From assembly GCA_001768195.1 (NCBI GenBank), contig MENI01000071.1, forward strand, positions 1 through 40,658: a stretch of DNA of 40,658 bases, read 5' to 3'. Below, one piece after another: positions 18,437 to 26,199 of this stretch. The stretch is from Bacteroidetes bacterium GWA2_40_15 (lineage in GTDB: Bacteria; Bacteroidota; Bacteroidia; Bacteroidales; VadinHA17). Position 1 is the stretch's first letter; each line of letters opens with the position of its first letter. Below the pieces are notes generated by a model. That model searched no databases, was not told the DNA's origin, and worked only from the letters and a program-made list of their open reading frames with translations. The translations under genes were made by a program, and so were the position numbers.

Positions 18437-19693
18437 CTATTTTGCTTTTATTGAATATACAGCCAGATAATCACCGTGCCTGACGAACAATCTCCCTTTA
18501 TCTATCACAGGATGAGCCCAATAGGGGCCTTCTCCTTTTGTAATCTTAAAAGAACTTATCAGATTGAACTGTTCACTGTCTGGTTTTATCAGTCCGACAT
18601 TACCACTTTTTTCCTCAATGATATATAGCATCCCGTCAGCTGATATTACGGCACCCTTATTAAACCAGTCAGTTATCCACATGGTTTTTCCTGTTGTCCA
18701 GTCAACACATATCCATCTTCCTTTGGAGTTGGTATCATGAGTTGAACTGTATATGTAGTTCCCAATAAGTACCATACCTCCAACATGTGGTGTAAAGTCA
18801 GCATTTTTCCAGACCAGTGCCGGATCTGATCCATCCGGATTAAGTTTCAGTTTTACTGCTACTTGTGTGTATCCGTTTGCAGCAACAAGACAACCATCAC
18901 GATAGATCGGGGTATTGACACGTGTCCTGTTCTCTTTATGTTCAGCATTAAGTATCTCGCAATTGAATTTCCAGAGAAGTTTTCCTGTGACAGAATTAAC
19001 TGCGATAATATGATCCGCTGTCAGCGTTACAATGATTTTCATGCCGCCATAATCGATGAGCAGAGGATTTATATAATTTGTAACTTCATTTATTGCCGGG
19101 GTTTCCCATACAACATTCCCGTTTTCAATATCGAAAGCAACCATTGAAGCGACATTGCCACCCGGGGTTCCGATTACCTTATTATCAACTACCAGAGGTG
19201 ATTCAGAAATACCGTGCCGTGGTGTTGGAGCACTATATTTCCGGGCATAATTCACTGACCAGATAATTTTTCCATCTTTTCCGACACAAACCAGGTCACC
19301 CTGCCCGCTTACAAGGAAAATTTTATTTTTGGTATATGTAGGAGTGCAGCGACTTTCCGGAAAGTTGTTGGCGGAGGAAGCATCTCCATATACCACTTCC
19401 CAGTTTTTCTTTCCATTCTGATTGAAAGATGCCAAAACGTCTTTTTCACCCTTTTTCCCGGTAATATAGATTGCATCATCAGTAACTGTAATACTTGAAT
19501 GTCCCGTACCTATTCCTGTTACTTCCCAAAGCAGCACAGGTCCCGAAGCCGGCCATATCTTCATCAATCCTTTTTCATTGTAGATACCGCTGCGCCCGGG
19601 TCCCCTCCAGCCAAACTGTTGCCCCTTAGCTACAACAAAGAGAGACAGTAAGAAACCCATTGCGAGAATTATTCTGCTAAAATTGCTCTTCAT
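18437..19693 (-). CDS. PQQ-binding-like beta-propeller protein, exported
   Basis: The 418-residue protein has a signal peptide (residues 1-24, VVAKGQQ), then WRGPGRSGIYNEKGL and repeated propeller strands ending in phrases such as GKIIWSVNY, GNVVWETP, GKLLWKFNC and GKTMWITDW. These are the WD-like blades of the PQQ/BamB superfamily; no Cys pair or metal ligand typical of true PQQ dehydrogenases is apparent. Such proteins are usually periplasmic and often sit in genomes of planctomycete- or Bacteroidota-like glycan users; the exact role is unknown. A decayed paralogue lies at 30759-31361, with a closely similar C-terminus (SSFKITKG, HPVI/NKG, RHG). Confidence 0.85.
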   Translation of the reverse strand: MKSNFSRIILAMGFLLSLFVVAKGQQFGWRGPGRSGIYNEKGLMKIWPASGPVLLWEVTGIGTGHSSITVTDDAIYITGKKGEKDVLASFNQNGKKNWEVVYGDASSANNFPESRCTPTYTKNKIFLVSGQGDLVCVGKDGKIIWSVNYARKYSAPTPRHGISESPLVVDNKVIGTPGGNVASMVAFDIENGNVVWETPAINEVTNYINPLLIDYGGMKIIVTLTADHIIAVNSVTGKLLWKFNCEILNAEHKENRTRVNTPIYRDGCLVAANGYTQVAVKLKLNPDGSDPALVWKNADFTPHVGGMVLIGNYIYSSTHDTNSKGRWICVDWTTGKTMWITDWFNKGAVISADGMLYIIEEKSGNVGLIKPDSEQFNLISSFKITKGEGPYWAHPVIDKGRLFVRHGDYLAVYSIKAK

Positions 19694-19917: not shown

Positions 19918-21750
19918 TCAGCCGGCTGATGTCGGGGGGCTTGGGTTAGTTATTCCTGGAAAGAGCGTTCTTCTTAATGCCTCGATATAGTATACAAGCG
20001 GGTACATCTTCTCGTCGTACCAGATTGCTGCAAAGTACAAACCAATAGGAGCAGAACGAAGATCACTGTTCCTGTATTCCTCTGCAAGCCATCTGAATCC
20101 GTTAAGACAAGCTTCCTGATGTTGAATTGCCAGGGCTGAGACAGAAAGGGCCGTTTCCTCTACGGTTCCGGGAATTCCCTTCCCTCCTCCCCAGCTTCCG
20201 TCGGGATTTTGCTGAGATAAAAGATATTGTTCAGCAAGTAAGATCATTTTTCCCAGTTTTTCTCTCAGGTCTGATTGTAAGCTATTATTTAACAGAGAAT
20301 CCTTAAGACTGATACAGACTTTTGCTGTTCCGTAAACAGGATTTTTCTTATCGGCTGTATACTGATTACCAAACCATAGTGGATACCAGCATCCATTCTC
20401 AGACTGATACTTTTGCAAATAACCTGCTGCTTTTAAAAGACAACTGTTTAACTTCTCCTTTAAAGTTACCGGAATATTATTGCCAAATCTGTCCATGGCT
20501 CTTACAAACGCCTGAACAGCATGACCCGTCAGATCGGCACAACTGCTGTCGAATGGTAAACGCCCCCAGCCTTTACAGAATGTGGGGAATCCTCCATCTG
20601 AGTTCTGAAGCCCTTCAAGCCAGATAAGCCCGTTGATAATGGCAGTCGTTTCACCGGAGGTACCTTCATACATCTCAAGCAGGGCCAGGATAGCCCCGGC
20701 TGTATCATCCGCATCGGGAACAGAACCGGAATGGTTTGTCCATCCCCAGCCGCTTGGCTTTGAGCCGTTAAAGGGATGTTTCCCGGTAAACTGTATTTTA
20801 AGCAGATGGGCTCTTAACTTCTGTACAGATTCCTTTCCTGTCACCGATTCCAGCTGCGGACCCAGCGCCTTTATACTAAGTGTTGTAACCCATGTTGAAA
20901 GATCCGTGTCGATAGGCCAGCTACCGTCAGACCGCTTCTGCTTACGAAGGAAATCCAAGCCCTTTTTCACAACCTCATTATATTTTTCCCCACTGGCAAT
21001 AAGACACATGTTCACAAATGCAGTGAGAGGTATTGCCTCAAGAAATCCACCGCTTTCAGGCATTAATGCGGACAGCTTCTTAATGGCCGGCTCTACTGCA
21101 CAGCTCCTGTATATCCGTGAAAATGAAAACCTTCTTTTTTTATTTGAATGAAGATAAATACCCACACCGATAAGCGCAGGAATAGCATAACTTACAACCT
21201 GCAGGTTAAAGAACCTGTAATATGAAGCAGGCAGGAGTGACAATTCAAAAGGAAGCTGTGGGATACGTCTGAATGCTTCGTCGGCCAATACGCCACATAG
21301 TGCAAGCATAGAAAGTATAGGTACTGAAAAGGTGTAATCACTGCCGTAGAATTTTAAAATGGATGATGTAATATTCAGACTGTCGGATGTTATGCCTTTC
21401 GTTGCAAGATAGTTCTCAACCGATTTTAAAAACTTTTTTGCACCGGCATCAGAGGAATTGCAAAAAAAGATAGCGGAATAACAGAGCAGACTGGTACTTA
21501 CATTACTCTCACTGCCGGGTGTATCTCCATATCCTCCATCGTCATTAATATTTGAACATAACCAGTAAAAACCCGATTGTATAAGCTCTTTATCTGCAGC
21601 ATCTCCATTGATTTTAAGAGCAACAATTGCAGTGGCTGTCGAAAGGGCGCTCGATGAAAGCATTCCGCTCCAGAAGCCTTCACTGTTTTGCTCCTTCTTT
21701 AAGCGGTCAGTCAGTACCTGCATCTGACTTTTAAGTGCATCTCTTTCCAT
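19918..21750 (-). CDS. class II terpene cyclase, squalene-hopene cyclase-like
   Basis: The start is taken at the ATG 21748-21750, two bases after the upstream stop; an in-frame TTG lies two codons earlier. The 610-residue product has the length and build of squalene-hopene cyclase: two alpha/alpha barrels with QW-type repeats (DGSWPIDTDLSTWVTTLSI, SDGGFPTF, NPDGSWGG) and the catalytic PDADDTA motif (DXDD at 346-349), where the middle Asp protonates the substrate. Also present is NGCWYPLWFGNQY...YGTAKV, like the C-terminal domain of the family. It is the last gene of the terpenoid operon. Because no squalene synthase gene is seen here, the substrate could be squalene from elsewhere or a linear polyprenyl chain. 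The product is unknown. Confidence 0.85.
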   Translation of the reverse strand: MERDALKSQMQVLTDRLKKEQNSEGFWSGMLSSSALSTATAIVALKINGDAADKELIQSGFYWLCSNINDDGGYGDTPGSESNVSTSLLCYSAIFFCNSSDAGAKKFLKSVENYLATKGITSDSLNITSSILKFYGSDYTFSVPILSMLALCGVLADEAFRRIPQLPFELSLLPASYYRFFNLQVVSYAIPALIGVGIYLHSNKKRRFSFSRIYRSCAVEPAIKKLSALMPESGGFLEAIPLTAFVNMCLIASGEKYNEVVKKGLDFLRKQKRSDGSWPIDTDLSTWVTTLSIKALGPQLESVTGKESVQKLRAHLLKIQFTGKHPFNGSKPSGWGWTNHSGSVPDADDTAGAILALLEMYEGTSGETTAIINGLIWLEGLQNSDGGFPTFCKGWGRLPFDSSCADLTGHAVQAFVRAMDRFGNNIPVTLKEKLNSCLLKAAGYLQKYQSENGCWYPLWFGNQYTADKKNPVYGTAKVCISLKDSLLNNSLQSDLREKLGKMILLAEQYLLSQQNPDGSWGGGKGIPGTVEETALSVSALAIQHQEACLNGFRWLAEEYRNSDLRSAPIGLYFAAIWYDEKMYPLVYYIEALRRTLFPGITNPSPPTSAG

Positions 21751-21752
21751 AT

Positions 21753-22607
21753 TCAATCCGATAATGCTCCCAAAGCCAGAAGACCATAAAATGTATATTC
21801 CACATCGGGACCGGGATCTGAAGCAGTTGCACAGAAGCCTCCCTCTGAATATAGTGAGTCAATATAGATAAGGCAGTCAGGTTTAATGATCCTGATCTCT
21901 GAGTTTATAAATTTCAGGGCATAGAGAGCAACTCCTGTTGAAAGAAGGTCTCCTGTGGGTGCTCTCCTCAGGGCTGCAAAGCTTCCGTCATTTCTATAGA
22001 AATCATTAAGCTGTTTGCCAGGTTTCGTTACAGCTCCACCTGAACAATCTTCAAGTATCAGATGAGCTGCTATTACAGAACATGGCATTTCAGAACCCCG
22101 GTTACTTATCTTCAGTTTTCGCCGGATACGAAAAAGAGCCTGATAGTCTTCAGTATAATAATAAGCCAGCAGGTTTATAAAATCAGAATATAATGGCTGA
22201 AGCTTATCGCCTTTTTTCAGAGCTGAGGGGACCGTCTCCGGACCAAAAAGTTTTGAAAGCAATATCACCGCACATTTCAGATGAATTCCTTCCAGGTTAC
22301 CTGCCCTGACTCTATTCATTACATATTCCCTCAGGGAAGGCATTAGCTCATGAACCCCCAGTGCCTGTGCAATATAACAACCAAATAATGAATAATACAG
22401 ATCGCATTTGCCTCCCCTGTCGGCAAATCCCCCCTCAGAAGTCTGCCGGGTCCTAACAAATGCCTGCATTTCAGAAAGAGTATCCTGATCAATCATACGG
22501 ACAGACTTTGCAAGAACAGTCTCAATGGAGTTTGTCCTGATCTTTTGGAGTGATCTTCCTGCAACGAGCTTAAATATATTCTTTGAAAATATTTCCAAGA
22601 ATCTCAT
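21753..22607 (-). CDS. prenyltransferase-beta/cyclase-like alpha-toroid protein without catalytic residues
   Basis: This 284-residue protein has the alpha/alpha toroid repeats of protein prenyltransferase beta subunits and terpene cyclases (SEGGFADRGGKCDLYYSLFGCYIAQAL, DGSFAALRRA, EGGFCATASDPGPDVEYTFYGLLALGAL). In prenyltransferase beta subunits the zinc ligands fall in D-x-C-Y-S and near x-H-T motifs; here the places read Asp69-Leu-Tyr71-Tyr-Ser and Glu270-Tyr271-Thr, so Cys and His are both lost. It also lacks DXDD. It overlaps the end of the synthase gene by 38 bases and ends two bases before the cyclase ATG, so it is tightly coupled with both. A partner or substrate carrier for the cyclase is my inference. 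Confidence 0.7.
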   Translation of the reverse strand: MRFLEIFSKNIFKLVAGRSLQKIRTNSIETVLAKSVRMIDQDTLSEMQAFVRTRQTSEGGFADRGGKCDLYYSLFGCYIAQALGVHELMPSLREYVMNRVRAGNLEGIHLKCAVILLSKLFGPETVPSALKKGDKLQPLYSDFINLLAYYYTEDYQALFRIRRKLKISNRGSEMPCSVIAAHLILEDCSGGAVTKPGKQLNDFYRNDGSFAALRRAPTGDLLSTGVALYALKFINSEIRIIKPDCLIYIDSLYSEGGFCATASDPGPDVEYTFYGLLALGALSD

Positions 22608-24156
22608 GCAAAGCCATTTTTAAACCAATGTTCTGAAAGTTATCCAGTGAGTTTTCTGATTCCTCTATATAGTCTTTCAGAAGATCCTCAGCAGACTGAC
22701 GGATATTGTAATCGTCTGCCAATTTCTGGATTATTTCAATATTACTGTTCTGAAAAGCATGCTGAAAAAGTGTTCTATCATCCGATGTCAGTTTTTCCAG
22801 GAGCATTGAAACAAGTACAGAAGGTTTACGGATTTCAAAATCACCGTTTTCATTTTTAAAATCCTCTAAATCATCTTTTATCTGGTATGCTATACCGACT
22901 GAACGGCTGAATTGTTCCAGCAGTGAAATTGAACCGGCATCAGCGCCTGCAGCTGTTGCCCCGAGCAGCAGTGAAACCCTGAAGGCTGTTGAAGTTTTAT
23001 ATTCAAAAACAGTTATGATCTCCTCCGTTGACAGAATCTCATGGTTCCTTAATGCCATCAGCTCAATACCCTGACCAACAGACAGTTTACGGTGTCCGTT
23101 AGAAACCATTTTAATGCAATCGCAGATAGTACCGGCAGGAAGCCTGGTCTCGGTTATAAGCCGATAACCCTCTCCGATCAGAAGATCACCAATATTTATT
23201 GCTACTGGCACACCATACCTGGCATGAATAGTCTCTGTTCCATATCGTTTTTCATCGTTATCTTCAATATCGTCGTGGATAAGAGAAGCTTTATGAAAAC
23301 ACTCCACCGAGAGAGCCAGACGGTTCAGGTTGTAAGGTTCGATCTGATTACTGAATGCTTCAAAAGCCAATACGGTAAGAAGAGGCCGAAGTCTTTTCCC
23401 TCCTGCAAGCAATGATTCAAAAACCAGATTCTCGGTTGAATTACCTGCAGGCTCAAGGATGCGGCTCAATTGTTCCTTTCCGAATATAGAAGATGTTCTG
23501 GTTTTCAAATAGTTAAGATTGAGTAACCGAAAAGCAGAGTTGCTATCGAAGTGATATATCTCTTCTTTAATCCAATCTGAATCGGCGAATGTATCGGCAC
23601 AACCACACTCCAGAAGAGGTACTCCGATACTGGGAATGGAGAATTTGCTTACTGAAACGAACATCTTCTGTAATACATCCATGCATCCCACACCAATTAC
23701 TGCATCAACTTTACCGCTCTCGATAAGTCTTGCAGCTATTGTTGTTCCTTCAGTGATAATAGCCACATATCCCAGGTTCTCTGCTTCACGTAAAAGAGCT
23801 GATATACTGCAGCTGCCACATTCTCTGCAAAGAAGTCCCATCTCATCCTGCTGCCCCTGGCACAGACGGCTGTTCTTTAAACAATGGGGAAGCAAAAATA
23901 TTCTGCGGTTAAACGGTACCGAACCAATTACAGGACGCCATATAGCATTACCGCAGCATACCATAACAAAGGCTTTGTATTTTTTATCCCACCCGTATTT
24001 CTCAAGCAGCAGTGTTGCTTGATCTTCAATGGTGCTATAAGATACGGGGGGTATTATAGTCCCCGAAGAAAACCATGCCTCAACCTCTTTCCGTATATTT
24101 TGCCGGATCTCAGATAATAATGGAACCTCCAGCGATAATTCTAATCCTGTCATCAT
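22570..24156 (-). CDS. DUF116-polyprenyl diphosphate synthase fusion
   Basis: The start is placed at ATG 24154-24156 because AAGGAG lies 8 bases upstream, overlapping the radical SAM stop; the longer frame begins inside that gene. In this 528-residue protein, residues about 45-200 are DUF116-like with Cys92, Cys99 and the CxxCxxC group Cys110, Cys113, Cys116 (GLLCRECGSCSI), plus Cys158, Cys184 and Cys186, probably binding an iron-sulfur cluster or zinc. Residues about 225-528 are a trans-isoprenyl diphosphate synthase with GGKRLRP, the first Asp-rich motif DDIED (295-299) and the second DDLED (428-432). Small residues Ala290 and Ser291 before the first motif suggest a long product (C20 or more). 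Fusion of these two domains is unusual. Confidence 0.88.
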   Translation of the reverse strand: MMTGLELSLEVPLLSEIRQNIRKEVEAWFSSGTIIPPVSYSTIEDQATLLLEKYGWDKKYKAFVMVCCGNAIWRPVIGSVPFNRRIFLLPHCLKNSRLCQGQQDEMGLLCRECGSCSISALLREAENLGYVAIITEGTTIAARLIESGKVDAVIGVGCMDVLQKMFVSVSKFSIPSIGVPLLECGCADTFADSDWIKEEIYHFDSNSAFRLLNLNYLKTRTSSIFGKEQLSRILEPAGNSTENLVFESLLAGGKRLRPLLTVLAFEAFSNQIEPYNLNRLALSVECFHKASLIHDDIEDNDEKRYGTETIHARYGVPVAINIGDLLIGEGYRLITETRLPAGTICDCIKMVSNGHRKLSVGQGIELMALRNHEILSTEEIITVFEYKTSTAFRVSLLLGATAAGADAGSISLLEQFSRSVGIAYQIKDDLEDFKNENGDFEIRKPSVLVSMLLEKLTSDDRTLFQHAFQNSNIEIIQKLADDYNIRQSAEDLLKDYIEESENSLDNFQNIGLKMALHEILGNIFKEYI

Positions 24157-24164
24157 CTTTCTAT

Positions 24165-24170
24165 CTCCTT
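24165..24170 (-). promoter_or_regulatory. Shine-Dalgarno AAGGAG for the fusion synthase
   Basis: AAGGAG on the minus strand overlaps the radical SAM stop codon (24170-24172) and sits 8 bases before ATG 24154-24156. Strong ribosome sites are uncommon in Bacteroidota, so this site helps fix the start and suggests coupled translation. Confidence 0.65.
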
Positions 24171-25348
24171 CAACCATAAGCTCCCATTCCAAAGAAAGCT
24201 GTCTTTTTTGCTATCCTGTATAACCTGTTCTTCTCCGGAACATAAGGACAGCTGCCATGACTGCTTACAACCGGAGCAATTTCAAATCCGGGCAACATGC
24301 CTGGCCTGTTTGATGTATTTAATGCATTATGTTTTTCAGAAAATTCCTTAAGCCACAATGGATCTTCCATTAAGACACACCCTTTTGTTTTGTGAAGGAT
24401 GGTGTTCCTGAAATCTTTCAGAAATTCTGAGTTTTCATAAACCTGCTTAAGGTTCCCATCACTGATATTCTCGCGGGCGAGCTGAATTACGGGACATGGC
24501 TCAATGTTTCCCGATGCATTTATATGGTGGCTTAATCCTTCAGCGGCAGGGCAGAAAGGTTCTCCATCAGCCCTCCAGTATGAATCGATCATCACTATCG
24601 GGTATTTGGTCCTGCCCTCCACAAGGAAATTCCTCAATCTTAATATTTCTTCATTATCAAGACATAATTCATAATTGGGATTTTCACCTGCAGGCCGATA
24701 AATATAATACCATATATAAATCACTCCGCTATCATGAAGCATCTGAACAAATTCCTCAGAAAGAGCCATTTCTATATTCGATTTACAGACGCTGATGGCT
24801 ACTCCTGTAATTAACTTATGCCTCACAGAAGTGTTAATAGCCTCAAATGTCTGCCGGTAAATATTATGCCCGCCACGACGCACATCTGCAACCTGCTCAT
24901 CACCCTCAAAGCTGAACATAGGGGTTACATTGGCTGATTTGAGAAGTCCTGAAGCAACAGAGTCAGTAAACAGCGTTCCATTCGAGAATAACTGAAAATA
25001 ACAGTCCGGATGTTTCTCAAAAATTTCGAATAACTGTTTATATATCAATGGTTCGCCACCCAGAATGCCAAAGAAATAAGAGCCCTGTTTCTTACTCTCT
25101 TCAATTATGGAATGGATCATTTCAATATCAAGAGATTCCTTGCTGCCGTTTGTACTTACCCAGCAACCCTGGCATTTCAGGTTACAGTCGTTTGTAACAG
25201 ATATGAATTGAAACGCAGGGAAGAGCTCCCCCCTCCTTTGTCTCTTCTTAAACTTACGGAAACCGTTAAATCCTTTCCACACCATATTTATGATGAACCT
25301 GTTACGGCAACGACGATCTGTTCTTATAAAATTTGAAAAAAGTGACAT
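24170..25348 (-). CDS. radical SAM protein with SPASM-like C-terminal cysteines
   Basis: The 392-residue protein has the radical SAM cluster motif CxxxCxxC at Cys55, Cys59, Cys62 (TNDCNLKCQGCW), followed by GILGGEP (94-100), the SAM-binding loop, and further strands (FQLFSNGTLFT). The C-terminal half holds Cys266, Cys285, Cys324 and Cys367; GEPFCPAAEG and SGNIEPCPV resemble SPASM-type auxiliary cluster regions. It lies 53 bases after the ferredoxin gene and immediately before the fusion synthase, sharing regulation with both. A role in modifying a prenyl or cyclised intermediate (methylation, cross-link or adenosyl transfer) is inferred from context only; peptide substrates cannot be excluded. 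Confidence 0.88.
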   Translation of the reverse strand: MSLFSNFIRTDRRCRNRFIINMVWKGFNGFRKFKKRQRRGELFPAFQFISVTNDCNLKCQGCWVSTNGSKESLDIEMIHSIIEESKKQGSYFFGILGGEPLIYKQLFEIFEKHPDCYFQLFSNGTLFTDSVASGLLKSANVTPMFSFEGDEQVADVRRGGHNIYRQTFEAINTSVRHKLITGVAISVCKSNIEMALSEEFVQMLHDSGVIYIWYYIYRPAGENPNYELCLDNEEILRLRNFLVEGRTKYPIVMIDSYWRADGEPFCPAAEGLSHHINASGNIEPCPVIQLARENISDGNLKQVYENSEFLKDFRNTILHKTKGCVLMEDPLWLKEFSEKHNALNTSNRPGMLPGFEIAPVVSSHGSCPYVPEKNRLYRIAKKTAFFGMGAYG

Positions 25349-25401
25349 TAAAATAATTCCTTTTATGTTTTGCTAATCTGAGTATTGTCCCCGGCCCGAC
25401 C

Positions 25402-26199
25402 TTATCTATATTGCTTATTCATATCCCCGGAGCGCTCTTCAAGAGCTTTTTTCATTGCCTCCTCCGTAATAATTGACTTACGTTTATGTTTCCTCTGCTC
25501 CAGGGCACTGTATATATCACCATCAGGAAGGTTATTTATATCAATGGCCTGCCGCTTCTGTTCAGACACTTCATCAATAGAATCAGAGCCCCCTATAGCC
25601 CCACCCTGTTTGTATTTTGGAAAGATTATTGCTGTTTGCGGACAAATCCTGGCGCAGGCCGGACAATTGTTTTTGCACTCAGCAGGCTTTATCACATTAA
25701 CCCTTCCTTCACTTTTTTGATATACACCGAAGAGACAGAAATCGGCGCATTGCCCGCAAGCGGAGCATCGGGTATAGTCAATAACCGGATACCATGATGG
25801 CCATGAGGAGTCGGCTTTATCCTCCTTAAAAGTGGAAGGCTGATCATTATTAATAAGGAATTCTGAGACTTTCTTAAAAAGATCTTCGTCTGATGACTCC
25901 AGAAAGTTGGCATAATGAAAAGAATGGTTGTTAACTTCAACATTTGCCTGTCCCAGTAATAACTTCAACGATCGTGAATGGCATCCTATGATCATGTATT
26001 CTTCAGCCCCTCTGAAAATAGTTGCAAGTCTCTCTCTGTCAAGGGCAGCAAGCCCGCACAGGTCCGACAGTTTAATCAATTCAGCATTATAGTCAATGAG
26101 GTTATTTTCAATATCCTGCAGTCGCTCCTGACTGATCCTGTCGCCACCGCAATTACAGAATATTATTCTCTTCCCCATGTTTAAAACCATTTCAGACAT
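25402..26199 (-). CDS. ferredoxin-like protein with HdrA-like N-terminus
   Basis: The 265-residue protein is the first gene of the terpenoid operon. The C-terminal half contains two (4Fe-4S) motifs, CSACGQCADFC and CKNNCPACARIC, the second in a CxxxCxxCxxxC order. The N-terminal half has IIFCNCGGD and an AEEYMIIGCHSRSLKLLL segment, similar to the entry domain of heterodisulfide reductase HdrA-type proteins, and could bind another cofactor. It probably supplies electrons to the radical SAM enzyme or to a redox step on the product. An in-frame ATG at 26178 is an alternative start and would give 258 residues. Confidence 0.82.
   Translation of the reverse strand: MSEMVLNMGKRIIFCNCGGDRISQERLQDIENNLIDYNAELIKLSDLCGLAALDRERLATIFRGAEEYMIIGCHSRSLKLLLGQANVEVNNHSFHYANFLESSDEDLFKKVSEFLINNDQPSTFKEDKADSSWPSWYPVIDYTRCSACGQCADFCLFGVYQKSEGRVNVIKPAECKNNCPACARICPQTAIIFPKYKQGGAIGGSDSIDEVSEQKRQAIDINNLPDGDIYSALEQRKHKRKSIITEEAMKKALEERSGDMNKQYR

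Follow-up and report, generated by a model that had tools for sequence, protein, structure and literature searches.

We analyzed a 40,658-nucleotide stretch of DNA (the window), contig MENI01000071.1 of Bacteroidetes bacterium GWA2_40_15, in which a compact group of genes at positions 19918 to 26199 appears to encode the parts of a terpenoid pathway. The group consists of five codirectional open reading frames (ORFs), all on the minus strand, transcribed in the order ferredoxin-like protein, radical S-adenosylmethionine (SAM) enzyme, fusion of DUF116 to a trans-prenyl diphosphate synthase, alpha-alpha toroid protein, and class II terpene cyclase (Table 1). The largest intergenic gap, 53 bases, separates the first two genes; the remaining junctions overlap or touch. 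The start of the fusion, TTG at 24192 or the in-frame ATG at 24177, overlaps the radical SAM stop, the toroid and fusion genes share 38 bases, and the cyclase gene either overlaps the toroid gene by 4 bases (TTG at 21756) or follows it after 2 bases (ATG at 21750). ORFs and domain searches thus bear out the original prediction of five minus-strand genes with gaps of at most 53 bases and terpenoid-type parts. Because the same order recurs in 66 of 80 related loci, the arrangement is not due to chance, and the comparisons presented here support the view that these genes form a conserved, apparently dedicated terpenoid cassette.

Table 1. Genes, domains, and motifs of the cassette and its downstream neighbor (positions in the window; SHC, squalene-hopene cyclase)
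Feature	Positions	Strand	Domains, motifs, or scores
Ferredoxin-like protein, 265 aa	25402..26199	-	4Fe-4S and N-terminal Cys-rich part
Radical SAM enzyme, 392 aa	24170..25348	-	Radical_SAM domain, CX3CX2C
CX3CX2C motif, aa 55-62	25163-25186		
DUF116 + trans-prenyl diphosphate synthase fusion, 540 aa	22570..24192	-	DUF116, polyprenyl_synt
DUF116 (PF01976) part	23560-24012		E 5.4e-31; 107.6 bits (gathering cut-off 25)
polyprenyl_synt part	22735-23421		E 1.3e-42; 146.3 bits (cut-off 27)
First aspartate-rich motif (FARM)	23260-23274		DDIED
Second aspartate-rich motif (SARM)	22861-22875		DDLED
Alpha-alpha toroid protein, 284 aa	21753..22607	-	Prenyltrans matches, AlphaFold2 fold
Class II terpene cyclase, SHC-like, 612 aa	19918..21756	-	SQHop_cyclase_C/N, DADD
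DADD acid motif (DXDD), aa 348-351	20704-20715		
PQQ-type beta-propeller protein, next to cassette	18437..19693	-	Downstream, strand shared with cassette

In the synthase half of the fusion, residues D307, D308, D311, K399, Q437, D440, and D441 are invariant in all 34 aligned fusions. The fifth position before FARM is occupied by alanine, where four solved farnesyl or geranylgeranyl diphosphate (FPP or GGPP) synthases used for comparison carry Tyr or Phe. The residue at this position predicts the product length of prenyl synthases, and by this rule the alanine suggests a product longer than C20. The DUF116 half holds seven cysteines (C104, C111, C122, C125, C128, C170, and C198). DUF116 (arCOG02078) has been described as a predicted metal-binding, likely electron-transfer domain, and its fusion to a polyprenyl synthetase has been in print since 2015 for Psta_0175 of Pirellula staleyi (PMC5898192, section 13). 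One of our control genomes, that of Methanosarcina acetivorans, was matched by both DUF116 and SQHop_cyclase_C.

The cyclase is recognized by SQHop_cyclase_C and SQHop_cyclase_N (E 6.7e-30 and 7.2e-19; 104.6 and 68.5 bits against cut-offs of 26.1 and 26.2). The acid-motif residues D348, D350, and D351 are invariant in 37 of 37 aligned members, and the DXDD pattern occurs in 67 of 69 cyclase ORFs, both misses being cut by contig ends. Cyclase length is 612 aa in the window and 582 to 610 aa in loci L022 to L027. Among solved structures, SHC matches the cyclase profile best, with an alignment that runs across DXDD; drimenyl diphosphate synthase (7xq4) also matches, at 6.7e-11, and SHC matches better. 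The toroid protein of the window has no domain match at E ≤ 0.001; at E ≤ 0.1, the Prenyltrans model matches 31 of 37 aligned members (window 0.003, best 2.4e-11). Its AlphaFold2 model (predicted local distance difference test score, 92.1) adopts an alpha-alpha toroid fold like that of protein prenyltransferase beta subunits and SHC-type toroids. Within the DPFHTLFG motif of the RabGGTase beta subunit, HTLFG aligns with YSLFG of the toroid, Tyr72 replacing the His in all 37 sequences, and the alignment holds no invariant Cys or His at all; the zinc site of protein prenyltransferase beta subunits, with its Asp, Cys, and His ligands, is therefore not preserved.

The ferredoxin-like protein combines an N-terminal Cys-rich part (invariant C15, C17, C48, and C73) with a two-cluster 4Fe-4S domain. 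The 4Fe-4S matches of the window protein lie slightly below curated cut-offs, and Fer4_10 is matched at E ≤ 0.1 by all 36 aligned members, the window included; the protein is a probable electron donor. In the radical SAM enzyme, the Radical_SAM domain scores 51 bits against a cut-off of 29.5 (E 2.5e-13), the CX3CX2C motif is kept in 80 of 80 loci, and its cysteines are invariant in 34 of 34 aligned members. The enzyme also carries a twitch/SPASM-like C266-x13-G280-x4-C285 plus C324, and its C-terminal end is conserved; measured against the SPASM/twitch cysteine pattern, CX13GX4C and one further invariant Cys are present, and the full SPASM set was not seen. In the hopanoid pathway, the radical SAM enzyme HpnH acts on a cyclic terpenoid. 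The HpnH model matches 29 of the 34 members (best 5.3e-15), many unrelated radical SAM models score at least as well, and HpnH is not among the 23 model matches of the window protein at E ≤ 1e-8. Plasmids of Escherichia albertii, Klebsiella, and Methanosphaera carry distant relatives of this enzyme (29 to 32% identity over 270 to 300 query residues), among them those at L116 2254-3633 and L117 4827-5912; neither of the two stretches that were read has another cassette gene annotated.

A search of the window's own genome and 60 relatives recovered the full-length fusion in 8 of 61 genomes, of which six belong to the window's genus (37 genomes searched); a ninth genome holds a piece only, at a contig end. 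Flanks were readable for seven of these loci (the window and L022 to L027), and all seven have the five genes in the same order; the eighth, L009, is on a 3.3-kb contig. A second search, of 37 genomes with the cyclase profile, gave five carriers, all in the window's genus, and the fusion occurs in the same five. A wider, pattern-based scan of a species-genome collection with the radical SAM profile gave 276 relatives, and the analysis used the 80 best; five of the 80 are the contigs of L022 to L026 again, and 75 are by title from metagenome-assembled genomes. As the sampled genomes come without a statement of completeness, absences in the latter are weak evidence. All five genes were matched in order on one strand in the 66 loci mentioned above, 55 of them with every frame flagged full; the remaining 11 were flagged incomplete, partly through contig ends and partly through our script's choice of starts. 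Fourteen of the 80 loci are without at least one cassette gene, which contig ends explain in 11 cases. The 38-base overlap of fusion and toroid genes reappears in 25 of the 66 ordered loci, and pairwise distances of the five genes correlate with r from 0.90 to 0.94 (63 loci; no control gene). A sample of 120 genomes from the family of the Draconibacterium aestuarii genome, a species that NCBI places in Prolixibacteraceae, gave the cyclase in 73 and DUF116 at E below 1e-70 in 74, with a weak match only in three more; cyclase and strong DUF116 occur together in 72 genomes, singly in 1 and 2, and neither in 45 (Fisher p 2e-29). Carriers that are strains by title are D. aestuarii, Mangrovibacterium lignilyticum, Sunxiuqinia indica, Gaoshiqia sediminis, and Bacteroidales bacterium 6E. 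Two loci are titled Alphaproteobacteria (L082) and Chlorobiota (L103), labels that we did not trust; the genome of L103 (G392) was drawn from the Draconibacterium family.

The neighborhood is thus not unique to this contig, and it also extends to a second phylum. The name of the latter, Verrucomicrobiota, rests on the label of the L062 genome (Akkermansiaceae) and a taxonomy look-up; none of the listed handles of its genomes occurs in the Bacteroidota sample. At E ≤ 1e-40, the fusion profile matched 53 of 288 second-phylum genomes, with the DUF116 part covered in 52, and 20 of the 53 neighborhoods were read. Seven contain the whole five-gene set (L154, L162, L166, L167, L169, L170, and L171); in L154 and L162, the radical SAM and ferredoxin-like genes have swapped order, and genes that are rearranged yet still linked are good evidence for a shared function. 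L164 has four cassette genes before its contig ends, L173 has four without the cyclase, L155 and L157 have three each, without the ferredoxin-like gene and the cyclase, and L165 (a 5.7-kb contig) and L168 have two each. Identity to the window is 39 to 43% for 8 cyclases and 34 to 42% for 20 fusions, at a locus GC content of 0.39 to 0.72. DxDD is present in 8 of 8 cyclases, and all 20 fusions keep DDxxD with Ala at −5 as well as the DUF116 pattern C-x6-C-x10-C-x2-C-x2-C. In a tree of 84 fusions, the 20 second-phylum sequences and the divergent L009 and L027, which come from the window's order, form one clade (support 0.995, midpoint root). The L062 fusion instead falls in a clade of seven (support 1.0), the other six members of which have Bacteroidia or Mariniphaga in their titles, so that this cassette may be a recent transfer or a case of mis-binning; the other 51 second-phylum genomes with the DUF116 part are independent of its placement. 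The GC content of the L062 locus is 0.57.

Apart from the five genes, every ORF cluster is limited to 16 of the 80 loci or fewer. ORFs for PQQ-type beta-propeller proteins lie near 16 loci, often several in a row, mostly downstream and on the same strand, and we judge the one beside the window's cassette to be an accessory or a mere neighbor, outside the core set. The upstream neighbor in the window is a phosphoesterase gene on the opposite strand. An ORF for a CobW-related GTPase, below curated cut-offs, comes after the cyclase, roughly 6 kb past the radical SAM gene, in 6 of the 80 loci (for example, L023 3959-5038, on a contig shared with L037). The window's own genome has no further SQHop cyclase except a 240-aa fragment (L031 9547-10380; G000 contig C5 40046-40879), which corresponds to residues 282 to 521 of the window cyclase and is 64% identical to it. 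The fragment lies within a cluster of haem genes; two ORFs before it is a protoporphyrinogen oxidase ORF of 223 aa, whose match covers just the first 208 of the model's 470 positions. The ORF after this fragment has 30% similarity to the gene for the GTPase found behind the cyclase in L023, and the fragment appears to be what is left of a second cassette that has decayed.

We lean toward reading the five genes as a single biosynthetic unit that would make a cyclic terpenoid lipid without squalene; we infer its product, chain length, and radical step from sequence. The synthase half, which has the motifs of its family, would extend isoprenoid units to a linear all-trans polyprenyl diphosphate, presumably longer than C20. 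The toroid, with its prenyltransferase beta fold lacking the zinc-site His, may hold or pass on the prenyl chain, perhaps as a subunit of the cyclase. The DXDD cyclase would then protonate a double bond and convert the chain, its putative substrate, into fused rings in the manner of SHC. Finally, with electrons from the ferredoxin-like protein and probably also from the Cys-rich DUF116 domain, the radical SAM enzyme would alter an unactivated carbon without oxygen; judging from the enzyme class, dehydrogenation, C-C joining, and adenosyl addition are candidate reactions. The likely role of such a product would be that of a hopanoid-like membrane lipid.

Several observations weigh against this reading. 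In the synthase, the last SARM position (444) is Asp in 18 and Glu in 16 of the 34 fusions, and the Lys of GGKR (Lys266), present in the window, is Gln in 20 of 34 (alignment A8), a change that might alter binding of the second substrate. The structure model of DUF116 gave no confident fold match. The spacing between toroid and cyclase genes exceeds 300 bases in 11 of the 66 ordered loci and reaches 3.2 kb, and three loci with room for the full set are without one gene (the cyclase in L049; the ferredoxin-like gene in L081 and L093). Seven of the 20 second-phylum neighborhoods show the fusion without any other cassette gene in the stretch read (L156, L158 to L161, L163, and L172, the contig of which ends 1.3 kb upstream), which means that it may work without these neighbors or that the other genes lie elsewhere in the genome; a lone fusion may have a role of its own there. 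Lastly, among relatives of the radical SAM enzyme, the closest one with a solved structure modifies peptides, as do several of the closest curated ones. The cassette might serve to modify a peptide or protein, with a radical SAM maturase, a prenyltransferase-type toroid, a synthase that makes the prenyl donor, and a cyclase that tailors the prenyl group, but this is very improbable, given that no small ORF, as the precursor peptide of a RiPP system would require, is common to more than 10 of the 66 loci within 1.2-kb flanks (the cassette interior was not searched) and that the toroid has Tyr at the position of the RabGGTase His.

The radical SAM profile matches not only SkfB (2.7e-16) but also 7tol, the archaeal macrocyclic archaeol or tetraether synthase (E 1.2e-6), and in a squalene-synthase-free route leading to a squalene-like chain the synthase would make FPP or GGPP, two chains of which would be joined by the radical SAM/DUF116/ferredoxin module before the SHC-like enzyme cyclizes the result. 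Such a route would fit the operon order, in which the radical module precedes the cyclase, the position of SHC as best solved match, and the carriers described below in which no squalene or phytoene synthase was found. We nevertheless regard it as unlikely, because the match to 7tol is confined to residues 48 to 178, SkfB matches far better, and the Ala before FARM favors a longer single chain.

Whether squalene could be the substrate depends on its supply, and here the original prediction, which saw no squalene or phytoene synthase gene, needs correction: the window's own genome has one homologue of the squalene synthase/phytoene synthase (SQS/PSY) family, on another contig. Its scores are 32.8 bits against the HpnC cut-off of 250.45 and 26.2 bits against the HpnD cut-off of 278.6, and at 1e-5 it is matched by none of the phytoene synthase models. 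The gene immediately before it encodes a CrtI-family desaturase (408.3 bits, cut-off 238.1), and the same contig also holds an isopentenyl-diphosphate isomerase gene (147.6 bits, cut-off 127). An SQS/PSY homologue was not found in 16 of 43 genomes holding cassette loci, nor in 18 of the 73 cyclase-positive family genomes, among them the isolate D. aestuarii; as completeness is not reported for the sampled genomes, this strain weighs most among the absences. The predicted route without squalene draws support from the 18 carriers and from the CrtI-family neighbor of the low-scoring homologue in the window's own genome.

On the opposing side, SQS/PSY and cyclase are positively associated across the family sample (55 genomes with both, 18 with the cyclase only, 19 with SQS/PSY only, and 28 with neither; Fisher p 2e-4), the opposite of what independence would predict, an association that could be due to genome completeness or ecology. 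Moreover, no family model names either of the two SQS/PSY genes that were read, and the one in Mangrovibacterium scores best with HpnD (112.9 bits), although below the cut-off of 278.6; its second-best model is phytoene synthase (97 of 550 bits), and it is flanked by CrtI-family and lycopene-cyclase-domain genes, both above cut-offs. Together with the SHC-type domains, the DXDD motif, and SHC as the best solved match, the association and the HpnD score of the Mangrovibacterium gene are what a hopanoid or hopanoid-like pathway would have in its favor, in which a divergent SHC uses squalene made elsewhere, at least one SQS/PSY homologue being present in 55 of the 73 carriers. We consider this explanation quite unlikely: the cyclase scores 82.7 bits against 431.1 for the squalene-hopene equivalog TIGR01507, the homologue in the window's genome lies far below the HpnC and HpnD cut-offs beside its CrtI-family gene, 18 carriers have no SQS/PSY homologue, and the operon has a prenyl synthase of its own. 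The known hopanoid pathway (SHC, HpnCDE, and HpnH) likewise has an SHC-type cyclase, and in it a radical SAM enzyme works on a cyclic terpenoid; squalene is an unlikely substrate for the cassette's cyclase.

A cyclized prenyl chain could alternatively be attached to a quinone or another head group, on which the radical SAM enzyme would act, and type II cyclases of the meroterpenoid kind (MstE) are indeed among the structural matches of the toroid model. Such a meroterpenoid is very unlikely, as a search confined to the 80 neighborhoods turned up no further gene, for instance an aromatic prenyltransferase, beside more than 16 of them, and the cluster that recurs in 16 is that of the beta-propeller genes.

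Compared with characterized systems, the cassette proposed here for a cyclic, non-squalene terpenoid most resembles parts of several pathways. In the Bacillus subtilis sporulene or tetraprenyl-curcumene pathway (HepS/HepT, YtpB, and SqhC), as far as described in the relevant part of PMC11708026, a C35 prenyl diphosphate is converted into rings by SqhC; both systems would share a long non-squalene prenyl diphosphate and an SHC-family cyclase, but in the Bacillus route the heptaprenyl synthase has two components, YtpB acts as an additional synthase ahead of the cyclase, and that part of the account includes no radical SAM enzyme, ferredoxin, DUF116, or toroid partner. A YtpB-type gene is absent from the recurring neighbors of the cassette; the genome was not searched for one. 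Drimenyl diphosphate synthase 7xq4, a prenyl diphosphate class II cyclase, is likewise of the SQHop type, but it is shorter (514 aa) and by entry titles has a farnesyl diphosphate ligand. The archaeal enzyme 7tol shares radical SAM action on isoprenoid lipids and the partial profile match noted above, but it is longer (526 aa) than the cassette enzyme. Psta_0175 has the same DUF116-polyprenyl synthetase fusion, and its description in section 13 of PMC5898192 names no cassette, cyclase, or radical SAM partner. In the open-licence literature searched for this gene set, we found no description of the cassette. The prediction that no described pathway has this set therefore stands within that literature, except that the DUF116-synthase fusion was already known; what is new is the unreported combination of enzymes in what would be a bacterial terpenoid pathway.

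If the proposed reading is correct, the cassette represents an unrecognized route to a terpenoid lipid, widespread within one bacterial family (73 of 120 sampled genomes) and also present in a second phylum. It would bring a radical SAM enzyme, DUF116, and a prenyltransferase-like toroid into terpenoid biosynthesis, and DUF116 would gain a pathway. It would also offer a concrete candidate source for "orphan biomarkers," a term applied to tricyclic terpanes, whose precise sources are given as unknown, with algae as a possibility, in the relevant passage of PMC9247107; a prokaryotic tricyclohexaprenol precursor is suggested for them in the corresponding part of PMC10319793. We considered a product of this type because its producer would need a prenyl synthase above C20 and a cyclase of SHC size. 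It is very unlikely, though conceivable, that the cassette makes regular tri- or polycyclic polyprenoids of the tricyclohexaprenol type from prenyl diphosphates of C30 or longer, through oxygen-independent cyclization and radical tailoring, and is thereby a biological source of the tricyclic terpanes found in sediments and oils. As the cassette is carried by many uncultured and a few cultured bacteria, the missing molecule can be sought directly.

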